Position numbers and translations under genes: made by a program. Below, piece by piece: positions 14,241-27,216 of a DNA stretch of 34,818 nucleotides. The notes under the pieces were generated by a model. It made no database searches. It saw nothing but the letters and a program-made list of their open reading frames with translations, and was not told the origin of the DNA. The DNA comes from Candidatus Aminicenantota bacterium (GTDB taxonomy: Bacteria; Acidobacteriota; Aminicenantia; Aminicenantales; Aminicenantaceae), in contig JAGLWV010000054.1 in NCBI GenBank assembly GCA_023133225.1, forward strand, positions 1 to 34,818, given 5' to 3'. Each line of letters begins with the position of its first letter. Position 1 is the stretch's first letter.

Positions 14241-17183
14241 ATGCTGACATCTTTTTGGAGCAACTCAATAGCGTGTTCCCGCAAGCAAAAAGCCATCCAA
14301 ACACTTTTGATCGGATTCCTGATTCTGTTTATAGGAGTAGCGCCGGCAGCAGCACAGAAGCAGAAGATCGATGAGGAATACACAGCTAAAATCAAAGAAT
14401 TCACAACAGATCCTCATTTTCTCACAAAATATGTTGATTATTTACCGTATTCTGAAAACGTACCCACACCTTTGGACATTCTAGGACATATAGCCGGAGC
14501 CGCAGATGTTTTGACTTATTCGTCCGATGTCAACAAGTACATGAGGGCGCTTGCCAAAGCCTCACCTCGCGTAAAGGTTTTTCCCGGCGGGATTTCCGAA
14601 GAAGGACGTGAACGCATTTTTGTCGTCATTTCCGATGAAGAAACAATCAATAACCTCGACCGCTACAAGGAAATAAATGCGAAATTAGCCGATCCACGAA
14701 AGATAAGTGAGTCCGAAGCGAAAAAGCTGCTGAAGGAAGCAAAACCCATGTATTGGGCAACCGGAGCTATGCATTCCGGAGAAACGGGTTCACCCGAAAT
14801 GCTGATGGAACTTGCGTATCGCCTCGCTGTAGATGAATCACCGTTCATCAAAACGATCCGCGATAACGCTATTGTTATGATCACTCCGGTGCTAGAGGTC
14901 GATGGCCGTGAAAAACAGGTTGACCTGGCTATGGCACGCCGGAAAGACCCTGATGCCAACTTTCCTTCCCGGCCGCTTTACTGGGGAAAATATGTCGCCC
15001 ATGATAACAATAGAGATAATCTCGGATTATCTCTTGATCTAAGCAAACATCTGATAAACACGTTTCTCGAGTTCCATCCTCAGGTCCTGCACGATCTGCA
15101 CGAATCGGCTTCCCATCTCTATGTGTCAACAGGAACCGGACCGTATAATGCATGGCTCGACCCCATCCTTATCGATGAATGGCACCAGATCGCATACCAG
15201 GAAGTCAATGAGATGACCAAAGAAGGCGTCCCGGGGGTCTGGACTCACGCTTTCTATGACGGCTGGGCTCCGAATTACGGTTTCTATGCCGCAAACGGCC
15301 ATAATGCGATCGGTCGTTTCTATGAAACACAGGGAGCAGGAAACGGGAGCACACGCGTTATAAGCACCCGCGGTGACCGAGCGTGGTACCGTCCGAATCC
15401 ACCGCTGAGACGAACGCTGTGGTCGATCCGAAACAATGTCAATATGCAGGGCAGTGCGATCCAGATCGCCATACACTATATAGCGAGCAATAGAGAAAAA
15501 TTCATGGGAAATTTTTACCTTAAAAGCAAACGCTCGGTTGCTAAAGCCTATAATGAAGGTCCTGCTGCGTATGTCTTTCCAGGAAACGATTCGCGGCCCG
15601 GACAGGCAGCGAGGCTGCTTAACCTGCTCCTGCTACAGGGTGTCGAAGTTCACAAGGCTGACAAGGATATAACTGTAGGTAAGGATAAGTTTCCTAAAGG
15701 GAGCTACATCATCCGTATGGACCAGCCCTATTCACGGATGGCTGATATGATGCTTGACCTCCAGTACTTTAACACCAATGATTCCCGCCCCTACGACGAT
15801 GTGGGCTGGACACTGGGACCCCTGTATAACGTGAAAACCGTCCGGATCAAGGACACTGCAGTTCTTTCTGAGCCAATGACTTTGGTTAAAAAAGTCAAAG
15901 TTCCCGGAGGTGTAAAAAAATTAAAACGCGGCTCGATAAAGGCGTTTCTTATCAATCATAATGCCGATAATCCACTCGCAACATTCAGATTCAAAAACAG
16001 CAAACTGAAAATGCACGCCGCCGAAAAGGGTTTTAAAGTCAATGAGAAGTCGTTTAATGCAGGCACGTTCGTTATTAAAACAGCTGAAAATTCCAAAGAC
16101 CTCGAAGATGTTCTAGCAAAGGCCGGCAAACAGTTTGGTTTTACGGCCTATGGTGTCACCTCGCTGCCAAAGGTATCTATGCACGAAATAACTGCACCTC
16201 GTGTGGCCCTGATGCATACCTGGCAGTCGACTCAAACAGAGGGCTGGGTTCGTATCGCACTGGATGAGCTGGAAATCCCATATGATTACATATCGGTTCA
16301 CGAAGTTCGCGACAATCCCCGGTTACGAGATAAATATGATGTCATTCTCTTCGGCCCCTCTTCAGGCAGTGCATTGAGGATCGTGCAGGGAACGACAGGA
16401 ACCAAACCCATTCCCTGGAAAAAAACGGAACTGACTCCTAATATTGGCAGGCAGGATTCAACCGATGACATGCGCGGTGGAATAGAGCTCGAAGGTGTGC
16501 TGCATCTTCATAATTTTATCAAGAGTGGCGGCCTCCTTATAACACTCACGAGCAGTTCATCGCTGCCGATTCACTTCGGTCTTGCCCAGGGAATCTCCAT
16601 CAGACAAACGACTGACTTATGGGCCCGCGGAGGCGTGTTCAGGGCAGAGGTTGCAGACAGTTCCAGCCCTATTGTATATGGATATGACAAGGAGCTAGGC
16701 GTATATTTCAGCCAGAGTCCGGTATTTGCCATGGGAAGTGGAGGTATGCGTAGATTCGGAGGTATGCGCCTTGGCCCAACGGGAAGAGTTTCAGGCCGCG
16801 GCAGCAAGAATGATCCAGATATTCCTCAGGGCAGGCCCAAAGATCTGGGTCAAAAAACCATTGAAGAATTCCAGAAAAAACAGAAAAAAGAGAGAGAAGA
16901 AAGAGAGGAACAGCAACCTCGCTCACGGGCTGTAAGAGCAACTGTCCGGCCGCGAACCGTGCTCCGTTTTACCAGAGATGAGGAGAAACTTCTGATCAGT
17001 GGAGGACTGGCCGGAGGCAAGGAGCTTGCCGGAACTCCTGCGGTTGTGGACTGCAAACTCGGCGAAGGTCATATCGTCATGTTCAGCATTAACCCGATGT
17101 GGCGTCATGAAACACATGGTTCGTTCTTCATGGTTTTTAACGCCATGCTGAATTATGATCATCTGGATGCAGGCAAGAAGTAG
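14241..17183 (+). CDS. Secreted M14 family zinc carboxypeptidase-like peptidase
   Basis: 980 aa; signal peptide; AMHSGETGSPEM (HxxE) and VLHDLHESAS; strong SD aaaggaggt upstream. Same overall layout as the 3567-6179 protein. Confidence 0.88.
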   Translation: MLTSFWSNSIACSRKQKAIQTLLIGFLILFIGVAPAAAQKQKIDEEYTAKIKEFTTDPHFLTKYVDYLPYSENVPTPLDILGHIAGAADVLTYSSDVNKYMRALAKASPRVKVFPGGISEEGRERIFVVISDEETINNLDRYKEINAKLADPRKISESEAKKLLKEAKPMYWATGAMHSGETGSPEMLMELAYRLAVDESPFIKTIRDNAIVMITPVLEVDGREKQVDLAMARRKDPDANFPSRPLYWGKYVAHDNNRDNLGLSLDLSKHLINTFLEFHPQVLHDLHESASHLYVSTGTGPYNAWLDPILIDEWHQIAYQEVNEMTKEGVPGVWTHAFYDGWAPNYGFYAANGHNAIGRFYETQGAGNGSTRVISTRGDRAWYRPNPPLRRTLWSIRNNVNMQGSAIQIAIHYIASNREKFMGNFYLKSKRSVAKAYNEGPAAYVFPGNDSRPGQAARLLNLLLLQGVEVHKADKDITVGKDKFPKGSYIIRMDQPYSRMADMMLDLQYFNTNDSRPYDDVGWTLGPLYNVKTVRIKDTAVLSEPMTLVKKVKVPGGVKKLKRGSIKAFLINHNADNPLATFRFKNSKLKMHAAEKGFKVNEKSFNAGTFVIKTAENSKDLEDVLAKAGKQFGFTAYGVTSLPKVSMHEITAPRVALMHTWQSTQTEGWVRIALDELEIPYDYISVHEVRDNPRLRDKYDVILFGPSSGSALRIVQGTTGTKPIPWKKTELTPNIGRQDSTDDMRGGIELEGVLHLHNFIKSGGLLITLTSSSSLPIHFGLAQGISIRQTTDLWARGGVFRAEVADSSSPIVYGYDKELGVYFSQSPVFAMGSGGMRRFGGMRLGPTGRVSGRGSKNDPDIPQGRPKDLGQKTIEEFQKKQKKEREEREEQQPRSRAVRATVRPRTVLRFTRDEEKLLISGGLAGGKELAGTPAVVDCKLGEGHIVMFSINPMWRHETHGSFFMVFNAMLNYDHLDAGKK

Positions 17184-17206
17184 AAATAAATTTCCCTAAA
17201 AGTAGA

Positions 17207-18242
17207 TTAAAATCCTCCGATCTTCACCATTGGTTCGCCCTTGCTCAGGGGTGGAGTGGAAATAATATACATAATGATCCCATCATGCGGGGCGATCGCT
17301 TTTTGGACGATGTTACCAAAAAAATCCGTGAGGTACCCCAACAGTTCTCCTTGCTGTACATGTCTGCCCCGGTATGCCAGGGGATAAAATATCCCTTCAT
17401 TCTCGGACCGGATATATGTGGTCTTCTTGATCCACACCGGTTCAAACTTTAGTTCCGGACTCCCGGCCATCATGCTCAGGTGCTTCATTGTGTTAGAGCA
17501 ACCTCTAATTATAGACTGGATGTCCTCTTCATCTGTTCTACCCAGTCTGCCGCACTCGACGGTCAGCGCAGGTTTTCCCTTGAAGAGCGATGCCCTTGCA
17601 CACATGGATGCGAATTCGTTCGGATCAGCCGTGACATGGATGATGAATTTGAATCCAAAATTTTTTGCCAAGTCTTTAGTTTTTTGATCCAGCTCAGAAT
17701 CTCCAGTTTCCGTATAATAGAGGTAGGTCATGAGGTCTTCATTACCATCACCACAGTGGAGATCCAGATGAAAATCACATTCGTCCAACACTTCATGGGT
17801 CACCTGGTAAGCGATCCTTTCCGTCATACTGCCATCGATTTTTCCAATCGTGAGGATTGTAGTATATGGTTCTTTTGAAAAAAGATGGAATGTTAACCAC
17901 ATGGACCATGACTACCGCACCGGAGATACGGGAGGGATCCAGTTTTTGTCGCAGGCGCTGCAGCGCAAGGATAGGAGGGTATTCATAACCGTGCACGCCA
18001 GCCGTTAAGGCCAGCACCGGACCCGGATTTACGCCGTTTATGATAGTCACAGGAATTCGGATTTCAGGTCCATCTCCTCCTCCGGGAACAATAATGAAGC
18101 CGGATTTTTTTTGACCCGGCCTGGCCATAACTTCACCGACGTTTATCACCCTCTCCGCAATCGCTGTGGCTGTCATGATGCTTAAGAAAAAAAGCATGAG
18201 CATTGAATTCAGGGATCTTTTCGTCATCATTTTGCCTTCCAT
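17207..18242 (-). pseudogene. Aspartoacylase/succinylglutamate desuccinylase family (AspA/AstE, M14-like) protein, frameshifted
   Basis: ORF 17793-18242 holds signal peptide and GVHGYEYP (Zn HxxE) up to YYNPHDWKN; ORF 17207-17902 continues with DGSMTERIAYQ...HLDLHCGDGNEDL and C-terminal biotinyl-like segment. The family LNRxFPG motif is missing at the junction (about 17840-17850). Confidence 0.85.
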
Positions 18243-18246
18243 TTCT

Positions 18247-20292
18247 TTAAAGATGGGAATAGTCTTTGCTGTACCGCAGCATCTGTTTTACATAATCTAA
18301 AGGGTATTCGATCTTAACGTCAACGATCTTTCCATTCTCGATAACCGGAGTGTATATCGGATTGATGAAACCACCGTAAGGAGCCAGGTTCAGTTTGGAA
18401 TATCGGTCCAGAACCTCCTTATGAAGTTCTGGATCGACCTTTACACCATAATTCTCGACCAAGTCGCGGGCAGCCTTATAATCGCCCTCACTGGTGATAC
18501 GCTGGACTTCCACGAGCAGCTCGCCGAACAGTTTCCTCAGTTTTTGATAATCGTTGATCATAAAATAGGTTTTCCCGTCCTTGACCTCTTTGGAGATCAC
18601 ATTCTCGGATTTTCCCTTCTCGTAAACCCAGTGTGCAACGAGAGCACGTCCGCGCATGTGTGCTTGTTCAATAGTCTTACCCGGTTGAATACGCACCAAT
18701 TGAGTCATCAGCCCATTCCGGATGTTTCGGTTATAATCCGCTTTGGCTCCTTCCAAGTTTGGCAAAAGGCCAAGTTCGACCATTTTGTCATCCATCAAGT
18801 AATAAAGGGCAAACAGGTCAGCCCGCGACTCCTCGATTGGAGAATGATAATTTTTTAGTGCTTCTGTGCTCACACCCGGCAGCAGCTGCCCGGACGCATG
18901 TCCCAGGACTTCGTGGAGGTCGGTATGCAGGCTTCCGGCATAGGCCCCGTATTTTTTTGCCCGTTCGAGATCCTCCTCGGAGTAGGAAAATTCTTTACCG
19001 AAGCCCGAACCCAGGGATGACTGATCATAGGCATAAATGATGTTTTCGATGGTAACCGATTTCGAACCGTGGTTTTTCCTGATCCAATTGGCATTAGGAA
19101 GGTTAATACCGATCGGGGTGGAAGGATAACAATCACCACCGAGCATGGCTGCAGTGATCACTTTAGCCGAGACTCCTTTGACCTGTTTCCGTTTAAAGCG
19201 GGAATCGATGGGGGAATGATCCTCGAACCATTGCGCGTTAAGCGAGATGATCTCAGTGCGCTTTGTGGCCGCAAGGTCCTTGAAGTTAACCACGGACTCC
19301 CAGCTGCCCTTCAATCCCATGGGATCGCTGTAAACCTCGATGAAACCATTAATAAAATCGACTTTTGACTTCACGTCATTGACCCATAAGATGTTGTACT
19401 CGTCGAACTTTTCCAAATCGCCTGTCTTATAGTATTCGATGAGTTTTTCTATCACCTTTTTCTGCTGGAGGGTCTCAGCCACCCCGGCCGCTTTTTCCAG
19501 CCAGTAAATGATCTTTTCGATGGCGGGTCCGTAAAGACCGTTGAGGTATGCAACCTCTTCAATCACTTTCCCGTTCTTTTTCACCACCCTGGAATTCAGC
19601 CCGTAGGAGATCGGTGTCGGGTCATTCTTATCCGCAATGCTTTTATAATAATCCTCGACCTCTGCCTGGGTAACACCTTTGTAGAAATTAACGGACGAAT
19701 GGGTAACGAGGTCTTTCGTTGAATCCTGAGATACTTTTTTAGCATCTACAGCTGGATCGAAAATAATGGGCTGCAGAAAGGCGACAAGGTCATCGAGTGT
19801 TTGGCCCTGGTTCAGCGGAAACTGTACACCCTCGGATCCTTTGACCAGCGAGTTGAAATAATCCGGAGTAAATTTCGGGGTGAATTTATCCGTGGAATAG
19901 TGATGATGGATCCCATTCGAGAACCAAACTCTTTTGGTGTAAATCATGAACTGTTCCCACCGGGGATCACTGCGGTCGCCTTTGTAGCCCTCAACGATGG
20001 CATCAAGAGTTTTACGAATCTTCAGATTATGCCTGTAGTTCTGAGCAAAGATGATATCGCGGCCACAGAGAGCAGCTTCACTAAGGTAGTAGATCAGTTC
20101 CTTTTGAGCCGATGATAGCCCTTCAAACCCAGGCACCTGATAACGCAGGATCCTCAAGTCAGCGAACTGGTCAACTTGCCATTTGAATTCCTGGGCAGCA
20201 GCCTCTGACTGTGGTTCGGGTTTTTTACACCCAGCCACACATAAAATCGTGATAAAAGAAAGTGACAAAATAAGTAAACGTTTTTTATCCAT
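18247..20292 (-). CDS. M49 family (dipeptidyl-peptidase III-like) metallopeptidase, lipoprotein
   Basis: HEVLGHASGQL (HExxxH) and EESRADLFALYYL (EExxAD-type) motifs; lipobox-like LCVAGC near N-terminus. Confidence 0.9.
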   Translation of the reverse strand: MDKKRLLILSLSFITILCVAGCKKPEPQSEAAAQEFKWQVDQFADLRILRYQVPGFEGLSSAQKELIYYLSEAALCGRDIIFAQNYRHNLKIRKTLDAIVEGYKGDRSDPRWEQFMIYTKRVWFSNGIHHHYSTDKFTPKFTPDYFNSLVKGSEGVQFPLNQGQTLDDLVAFLQPIIFDPAVDAKKVSQDSTKDLVTHSSVNFYKGVTQAEVEDYYKSIADKNDPTPISYGLNSRVVKKNGKVIEEVAYLNGLYGPAIEKIIYWLEKAAGVAETLQQKKVIEKLIEYYKTGDLEKFDEYNILWVNDVKSKVDFINGFIEVYSDPMGLKGSWESVVNFKDLAATKRTEIISLNAQWFEDHSPIDSRFKRKQVKGVSAKVITAAMLGGDCYPSTPIGINLPNANWIRKNHGSKSVTIENIIYAYDQSSLGSGFGKEFSYSEEDLERAKKYGAYAGSLHTDLHEVLGHASGQLLPGVSTEALKNYHSPIEESRADLFALYYLMDDKMVELGLLPNLEGAKADYNRNIRNGLMTQLVRIQPGKTIEQAHMRGRALVAHWVYEKGKSENVISKEVKDGKTYFMINDYQKLRKLFGELLVEVQRITSEGDYKAARDLVENYGVKVDPELHKEVLDRYSKLNLAPYGGFINPIYTPVIENGKIVDVKIEYPLDYVKQMLRYSKDYSHL

Positions 20293-24880: not shown

Positions 24881-25310
24881 TTTTCCTCCTTTGAAAATAT
24901 TGAAATTATGACACTATAAAAATTTCCTCTAAATACTGAATATGTTTTATCTCTTATAATTGTATTTAACTTTTAACTGCAAAAAATATACCAATTTCAT
25001 CTTAAGTGGTTTATTAAAGCTTTTAAAACACTAAATGTCCATTTCTGAACACGTTATATCCGAATTCGGACAGTATATGCCACATATTAATTGAAATACG
25101 TTAATTTTGAGCGCGATTTCTAGCCTTAGAAGGTCAATTTCGCCCCCGGCTCATTACGTTTTTGAGTACCTGGATTGACGTAGAGGGGGATATGGCCCTA
25201 AAAAGGAGGCTGGTTCATCACAATAATGGATGCTCAGTGTTTAATGATTTATAGGTTCAGATCTTTTGATAGGGGTAGGAAGAACCAGTTACCTGGTCCC
25301 TCCCCCCTCC

Positions 25311-25343
25311 GAACCGTGCATGCGGTTCTCCCGCACACGGCTC
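25311..25343 (-). ncRNA. Group II intron domain V catalytic hairpin
   Basis: GAGCCGTG/CACGGTTC and TGCGG/CCGCA stems, AGC triad in 5' strand; lies just downstream of the RT stop as expected. Confidence 0.9.
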
Positions 25344-25356
25344 TCCGGTCGGTGGT

Positions 25357-26693
25357 TCACCTCCGAGAGGATTGACAGGCTTCTACATGGGCTGTGACCA
25401 TGGAGAACAGCCCAAGTTCAGCAAAGTGAGCATTTGGCCAGCGTAGATGATCAAATCCTCGACCAACCCCTGTCCGCCTCTGACGTTTCCTCAATATGCT
25501 GCGTAGTCTCATTCTTATCCATCCGTCAAAGTAAGGAAAAGTACTTTTATGGCTGTGTTTAAAGTATTCAAACCAGCCTTTTGTCGATCGATTAATATCC
25601 CAGATGATCCTTTCCATTCTGTGGCCGTTAGTCCGCTTAGTCTTAGATCTTATTGCTTCCCTGAATTTATTAGCGCTTCTTCGACTTGGCCACCTAAGTC
25701 CTCTTTCGAAGTGGTAGCCCAGAAAGTCAAAACCTCCCGCCTGGATAGCATTGACTATTCGAGTCTTTTCTGGATGCAGTTCAAGTTCTGCTTCTCGTAT
25801 CCATCGGGTAACCCGTTCCAAGGCCTTTAGAGCTTCTTTTTCACTCCGGCTGAGTATGACAAAATCATCGGCATATCGAACCATCTCGATCCCTTTATCG
25901 GCCATGTAATAATCCAGCGGGTCAAGGTATATGTTTGACAACAAGGGACTTATTACTGCCCCTTGCGGTGTCCCTTCTTCCGGTGTCCATTGTTCGACCG
26001 TTCCCATGACTTCCTGCTTCAGATATTGCTCGATCAATGTTATTATCCTACCGTCTGAGACTTTTGTGCTTACCAGTCCTATCAACTTATCGTGTGAGAT
26101 CGTGTCAAAATAACTCTTTATGTCTGCATCAACCACCCATGTGTATCCCTGCTTGAGTAAATCGTCCACTCTTCGCAGCGCATCCTTACACCCGCGTCTC
26201 GGCCGGAATCCGTAACTCTGTTCAGCAAAATCCCTTTCAAAGATCGGTTCCAAGACCATTCGCATCGCCGTCTGCACAACCCGATCTCTAACTGTGGGTA
26301 TACCTATCGGCCGTTTCTCTCTCTTGCCTGGTTTGGTTATCCATACTCGCCTGACCGGCTGGGGACGGTATCCCCTTTCTCCAGCGCCTTAGACACGCTC
26401 GTTAGGTTCCCTTCCAGGCCCTTCTCGAACATCTGGATTGTCTGGTGGTCTGCTCCGGCTACCCCTTCTCTTGCTTTCACTTTTGTGAATGCAAGCCGGA
26501 GTACCTTCATCGAGTAGACCTTGTCAATCAAGCTGAACCATTTGCCTCCTTTCACACCTTCCTCGAGGGCCGTCAACATGCGTTCCGTCCAGACGTCCGG
26601 TTCGACCCAGGACCAACGATCCCGCATCTCTCCGACTTGCTTAGTCCCATCGGACACTGACGCCGGTATCTCTTCCTTACGTCTGTCGGTCAT
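25357..26693 (-). pseudogene. ltrA: Group II intron reverse transcriptase/maturase, frameshifted
   Basis: ORF 26337-26693 (N-terminus to SVSKALEKG) and ORF 25357-26277 (GFRPRRGC, YADDFVIL, maturase X) lie in different frames; +1 G in the run at 26372-26375 would restore EKGGYRPQPVRRVWITKPGKREKRPIGIPTVRDRVVQ. Confidence 0.9.
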
Positions 26694-27108: not shown

Positions 27109-27216
27109 TCATTCCCGCGGAAGCGGGAATCTAGAAATATGAAAAAGTTTTACGCTGGATTGATTTGTATTGGCGTATATGTAGAAGTCCTGGATTCCCG
27201 CTTTCGCGGGAATGAC
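27109..27216. repeat. MITE/REP-like element: inverted pair of ATTCCCGC-N4-GCGGGAAT palindromes
   Basis: TCATTCCCGCGGAAGCGGGAATCTAG (27109-27134) and CTGGATTCCCGCTTTCGCGGGAATGACG (27189-27216 approx.) in inverted orientation. Confidence 0.85.

Follow-up and report, generated by a model that had tools for sequence, protein, structure and literature searches.

Two open reading frames on the minus strand of a Candidatus Aminicenantota contig each resemble part of the same deacylase, which raises the questions of whether they are one broken gene, how the break arose, and what has become of the product. The window (the whole stretch of DNA analyzed, 34,818 nucleotides) is contig C357 of a draft MAG of 3.08 Mb in 406 contigs that is about 80% complete. 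The two frames of this AstE/AspA-type deacylase gene meet at GATTGGAAAAATCGATGGC, at approximately 17846-17830, where the minus strand reads ...TAC TAC AAT CCT CAC GAT TGG AAA AAT CGA TGG CAG TAT GAC GG... across the break. Frame 1 (ORF 18242..17793) proceeds as far as YYNPHDWKN and then runs off-frame through RWQYDGKDRLPGDP to a stop; the homologous reading continues in the second frame as GKIDGSMTERIAY (17845..17207). The features of the locus are as follows.

17793 to 18230, minus strand: upstream part of the deacylase, with the HGxE zinc motif (HGYE); its homology stays in frame as far as DWKN (about 17838), after which an off-frame stretch leads to a premature stop (from the ORF, Pfam and homologues).
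17830 to 17846, minus strand: deletion junction, lacking 26 nt in comparison with all homologues read, including the invariant NRxFPG codons.
17837 to 17845, minus strand: remaining repeat copy GGAAAAATC at the junction; the exact breakpoint is ambiguous inside the repeat.
17207 to 17845, minus strand: downstream part of the deacylase in the shifted frame (GKIDGSMTERIAY...) to the natural stop, with LHCG and VECG; undamaged.

A split gene of the AstE/AspA family

The true start is likely ATGATGACG at 18230, behind GGAAGG (..ATGATG), and the upstream part probably begins with a signal peptide. The downstream part matches CP070750.1, a Candidatus Aminicenantes chromosome and the nearest named relative, at 76%. 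Both fragments score above the curated cut-off (25) of the Pfam profile AstE_AspA_cat (PF24827) and so belong to this family, with ORF 1 covering profile positions 1-53 (E=1.9e-9, 37.8 bits) and ORF 2 positions 80-192 (E=2.1e-11, 44.2 bits). An earlier reading of the locus, made from the sequence only, had proposed an AspA/AstE gene broken into two frames at 17820-17890; the family is supported by the two profile matches, and the break is confirmed by the minus-strand reading, the ORFs, and the split Pfam match. Intact orthologues of the window gene align over the whole catalytic domain with the family, which includes the DoeB-like N-acetyl-diaminobutyrate deacetylases (6twl/6twm) as well as 3cdx and 3na6. 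The window copy differs from these relatives in having lost the NRxFPG block and in its shifted frame, being split at 17837-17845 rather than encoded in a single ORF.

The HGYE, LHCG, and VECG motifs are all found in the window fragments. By analogy with the zinc and catalytic residues H21/E24/H116/E178 of human aspartoacylase, ASPA (PMC5412892, PMC10998430), HGYE and LHCG are predicted to provide the zinc ligands and the Glu of VECG to be the catalytic residue. The substrate-binding NRxFPG segment, on the other hand, is missing in the window and kept in all 30 homologous loci read. In these homologues it aligns with the NRcFPG/NRaFPG of the solved relatives 3cdx and 3na6, and Asn70 and Arg71 of human aspartoacylase are part of the substrate-contacting catalytic core (PMC5412892, PMC10998430). 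Among NCBIfam models, that of DoeB (the TIGR02994 equivalog) is nearest to the intact orthologue, which nevertheless scores only 116.6 bits, far short of the cut-off of 402.7.

Size and origin of the deletion

Matches to the deacylase were sought in 148 relatives, and for the best matches the site was read at 30 loci, representing 29 distinct genes (loci L003 and L032 are the same gene of genome G024). Every one of these loci has DW[KQ]N[LQ]NRxFPGxxxG at constant spacing, and the two-frame layout was seen in none of the 30. Between the Asn codon of DWKN and the conserved pair that comes next in the alignment, which is DG in the nearest relatives, there are nine codons (27 nt) in all 30 loci and 1 nt in the window, so that 26 nt are missing. 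This comparison strongly supports a 26-nt deletion that includes the invariant NRxFPG block. The sequence-only reading had anticipated both the absence of an LNRxFPG-type block and a loss of about 26 nt, and the homologues agree on both counts, with no insertion of another length at this point. It had also spelled out the lost residues as LNRVFPGK, of which the NRxFPG core is right, but the nearest relatives read QNR[VA]FPG[IN].

The same reading attributed the loss to slippage between 9-nt direct repeats. The sequence GGAAAAATC occurs once at the gene (17845..17837) and three times in the whole window, against 1.2 expected; the surviving 9-mer is thus uninformative by itself, and the evidence for the deletion is the comparison with homologues. 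Extant relatives, the nearest of which are about 30% diverged, serve as proxies for the ancestral repeat. The two nearest orthologues of the window gene, each approximately 70% identical to it, carry 9-nt near-repeats 26 nt apart in the predicted register, 7/9 identical in both cases: GGAAGAATC...GGAATTATC in L002 (genome G011) and GGAAAAACC...GGAAACATC in L003/L032 (G024). At the same positions, the other 26 homologues compared show 2-5 matches out of nine. About 2-3% of 26-nt deletion points in the L002 and L003 genes would fall in such a 7/9 register, and the lost 26 nt correspond in these relatives to one repeat and its spacer (9 + 17).

It is plausible, then, that the deletion arose by slippage, and likely that the 9-nt repeat was the substrate. 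The ancestor would have had short direct repeats like GGAAAAATC, perfect or near-perfect, about 26 nt apart; slipped mispairing (or annealing) between them would have removed one copy along with the spacer, and with it the (L/Q)NRxFPG codons, shifting the frame. The loss of a repeat copy with its spacer, the broken frame, and the near-repeats in register in relatives all resemble a slipped-mispairing deletion between short direct repeats. The case differs in that no intact parent allele bearing both exact copies turned up, nor any genome with the gene closer than these two relatives, and we infer the mechanism. The proposal of 9-nt repeats consequently holds as far as the near-repeats at the predicted places in the two nearest relatives, whereas an exact second GGAAAAATC was found in no extant homologue, the nearest being GGAATTATC and GGAAACATC. 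For this reason the repeat used was possibly as short as ATC, which is all that both proxies share with the window flush at the junction end. A literature search found no directly useful bacterial survey of slippage pseudogenes.

A real deletion that made no use of the 9-nt repeat, whether random or mediated by microhomology (for example the 3-nt ATC that the two proxies share flush at the ends), is the alternative that survives best, although we think it rather unlikely. Both nearest relatives do have a second copy that deviates from GGAAAAATC at two positions, and imperfect 7/9 pairs are frequent in these genes, with about 100 per gene within 10-60 nt; a near-repeat in the exact predicted register, seen in the two nearest relatives only, argues for the repeat.

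Reality, age, and activity of the broken gene

Taken together, the locus very probably held a gene for a secreted zinc deacylase of the AstE/AspA family that has recently become a pseudogene, or that exists in the population as a null allele; it lost 26 nt, plausibly by short-repeat slippage, and its product would be inactive. A read-through product is probably inactive as well, since it would be without NRxFPG, part of the substrate-contacting core in aspartoacylase. The gene carries one lesion; the rest is intact to its natural stop, with HGYE, LHCG, and VECG kept. At first and second codon positions, the window gene shows no clear excess of divergence from the outgroup L005 over its relatives. 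The dN/dS of the L002/L003 pair is 0.11, similar to other pairs in the family, and dS to the window gene is saturated, which rules out a dS-based age for its branch. The single lesion, the retention of the predicted ligands and catalytic residue, and the lack of acceleration suggest that the lesion is recent or that only some members of the population carry it. No other close copy that might be intact was found in this genome, where there are only remote paralogues, at contigs C46 and C87, about 25% identical. This is an ordinary young pseudogene, and short-repeat deletion is an ordinary route of gene death.

The alternative that the real gene is intact and the metagenome bin contains a collapsed assembly or a consensus error was raised by the sequence-only reading and seems improbable. 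The source is a draft MAG in 406 contigs, which leaves some chance of a rare variant or a local assembly error, and the frame is broken at another place on this contig, near 26370, where the reverse transcriptase of a group II intron has a probable 1-nt change within a short G run. On the other side, a perfect 9-nt repeat should be too short for an assembler to collapse the locus, lying far below usual k-mers and read overlaps, and a 26-nt loss is atypical of read error. The neighboring long genes, encoding M49 (681 aa) and M14 (980 aa) peptidases, are moreover intact and align over their full length with relatives. Expression as one protein by frameshifting or transcriptional slippage at the A5 run of GGAAAAATC, or as two working polypeptides, is very hard to credit: preservation is good in both halves, whose frames overlap at that run, but A5 is short for slippage, the product would still lack about nine residues including the invariant NRxFPG that contacts substrate in the family, and a gene laid out in two frames was seen nowhere among the 30 homologous loci read.

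The group II intron itself lies at window positions 25269-26693 on the minus strand (Rfam RF00029 domain at 25269-25345), and the short G run near 26370 is where its reverse transcriptase passes from one frame to another. Beside the 5' side of the intron, a short inverted repeat, ATTCCCGCGAAAGCGGGAATC / GATTCCCGCTTCCGCGGGAAT, was noted by eye at 27110-27215; it flanks about 60 bp and looks like a mobile palindromic element.

Neighborhood and orthologues in related genomes

The deacylase gene begins 16 nt past the stop of the M49 peptidase gene (18247-20292). Within 14241-20292 of the window, the broken gene lies between the M49 gene and that of a convergently oriented M14 peptidase; the relatives examined do not have this arrangement and carry the three genes at separate places. 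A conserved operon with M49 and M14 was rejected, as in G011 and G024 the M49 and M14b genes, where found, are located elsewhere from the orthologue, which adjoins 6-phosphofructokinase-like and quinone-oxidoreductase-like genes in both genomes. Other orthologous genes between these genomes are approximately 75-80% identical, so the roughly 70-75% identity of the deacylase fits ordinary descent with rearrangement. Of the relatives searched, only G001 (1.5 Mb) belongs to the same genus, and it gave no match to the deacylase. The best M14 homologue in that genome (G001:C25:5602-8055) has two stop codons within the matching region, a TGA and a TAG.

The orthologue in G011, a genome of a neighboring genus (L037:3036-4085, G011:C153, minus strand), is interrupted at codon 282 by an in-frame TAG, its frame being otherwise intact. 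The window and G024 have TAT at this position, and the TAG truncates the C-terminal domain. Recoding of this stop codon was discarded because the other long G011 genes matched in the searches are without internal stops. If real, the TAG is a lesion independent of the 26-nt deletion in the window. Two of the three members of the orthologue clade (the window and G011, with only G024 intact) would then carry unrelated lesions that break the gene, compared with no such case among the 46 other full-length matches; the Fisher p of about 0.003 (computed with 47 open copies) comes from a comparison chosen post hoc, and each of the two broken copies belongs to a draft assembly. That the deacylase was repeatedly and independently lost in one Aminicenantes clade is doubtful on these data. 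It may be dispensable in the clade, in a reading that involves small numbers and two draft assemblies.

For annotation, the two ORFs are corrected to one broken gene. A mechanistic prediction made from raw sequence, of 26 nt and a specific block, agreed with the homologues; the finding as a whole has little significance beyond annotation. If the G011 lesion is real, the deacylase becomes a candidate for recent convergent loss in the clade; if the repeated loss is true, it would suggest that something changed recently across the lineage and left the activity dispensable or costly.
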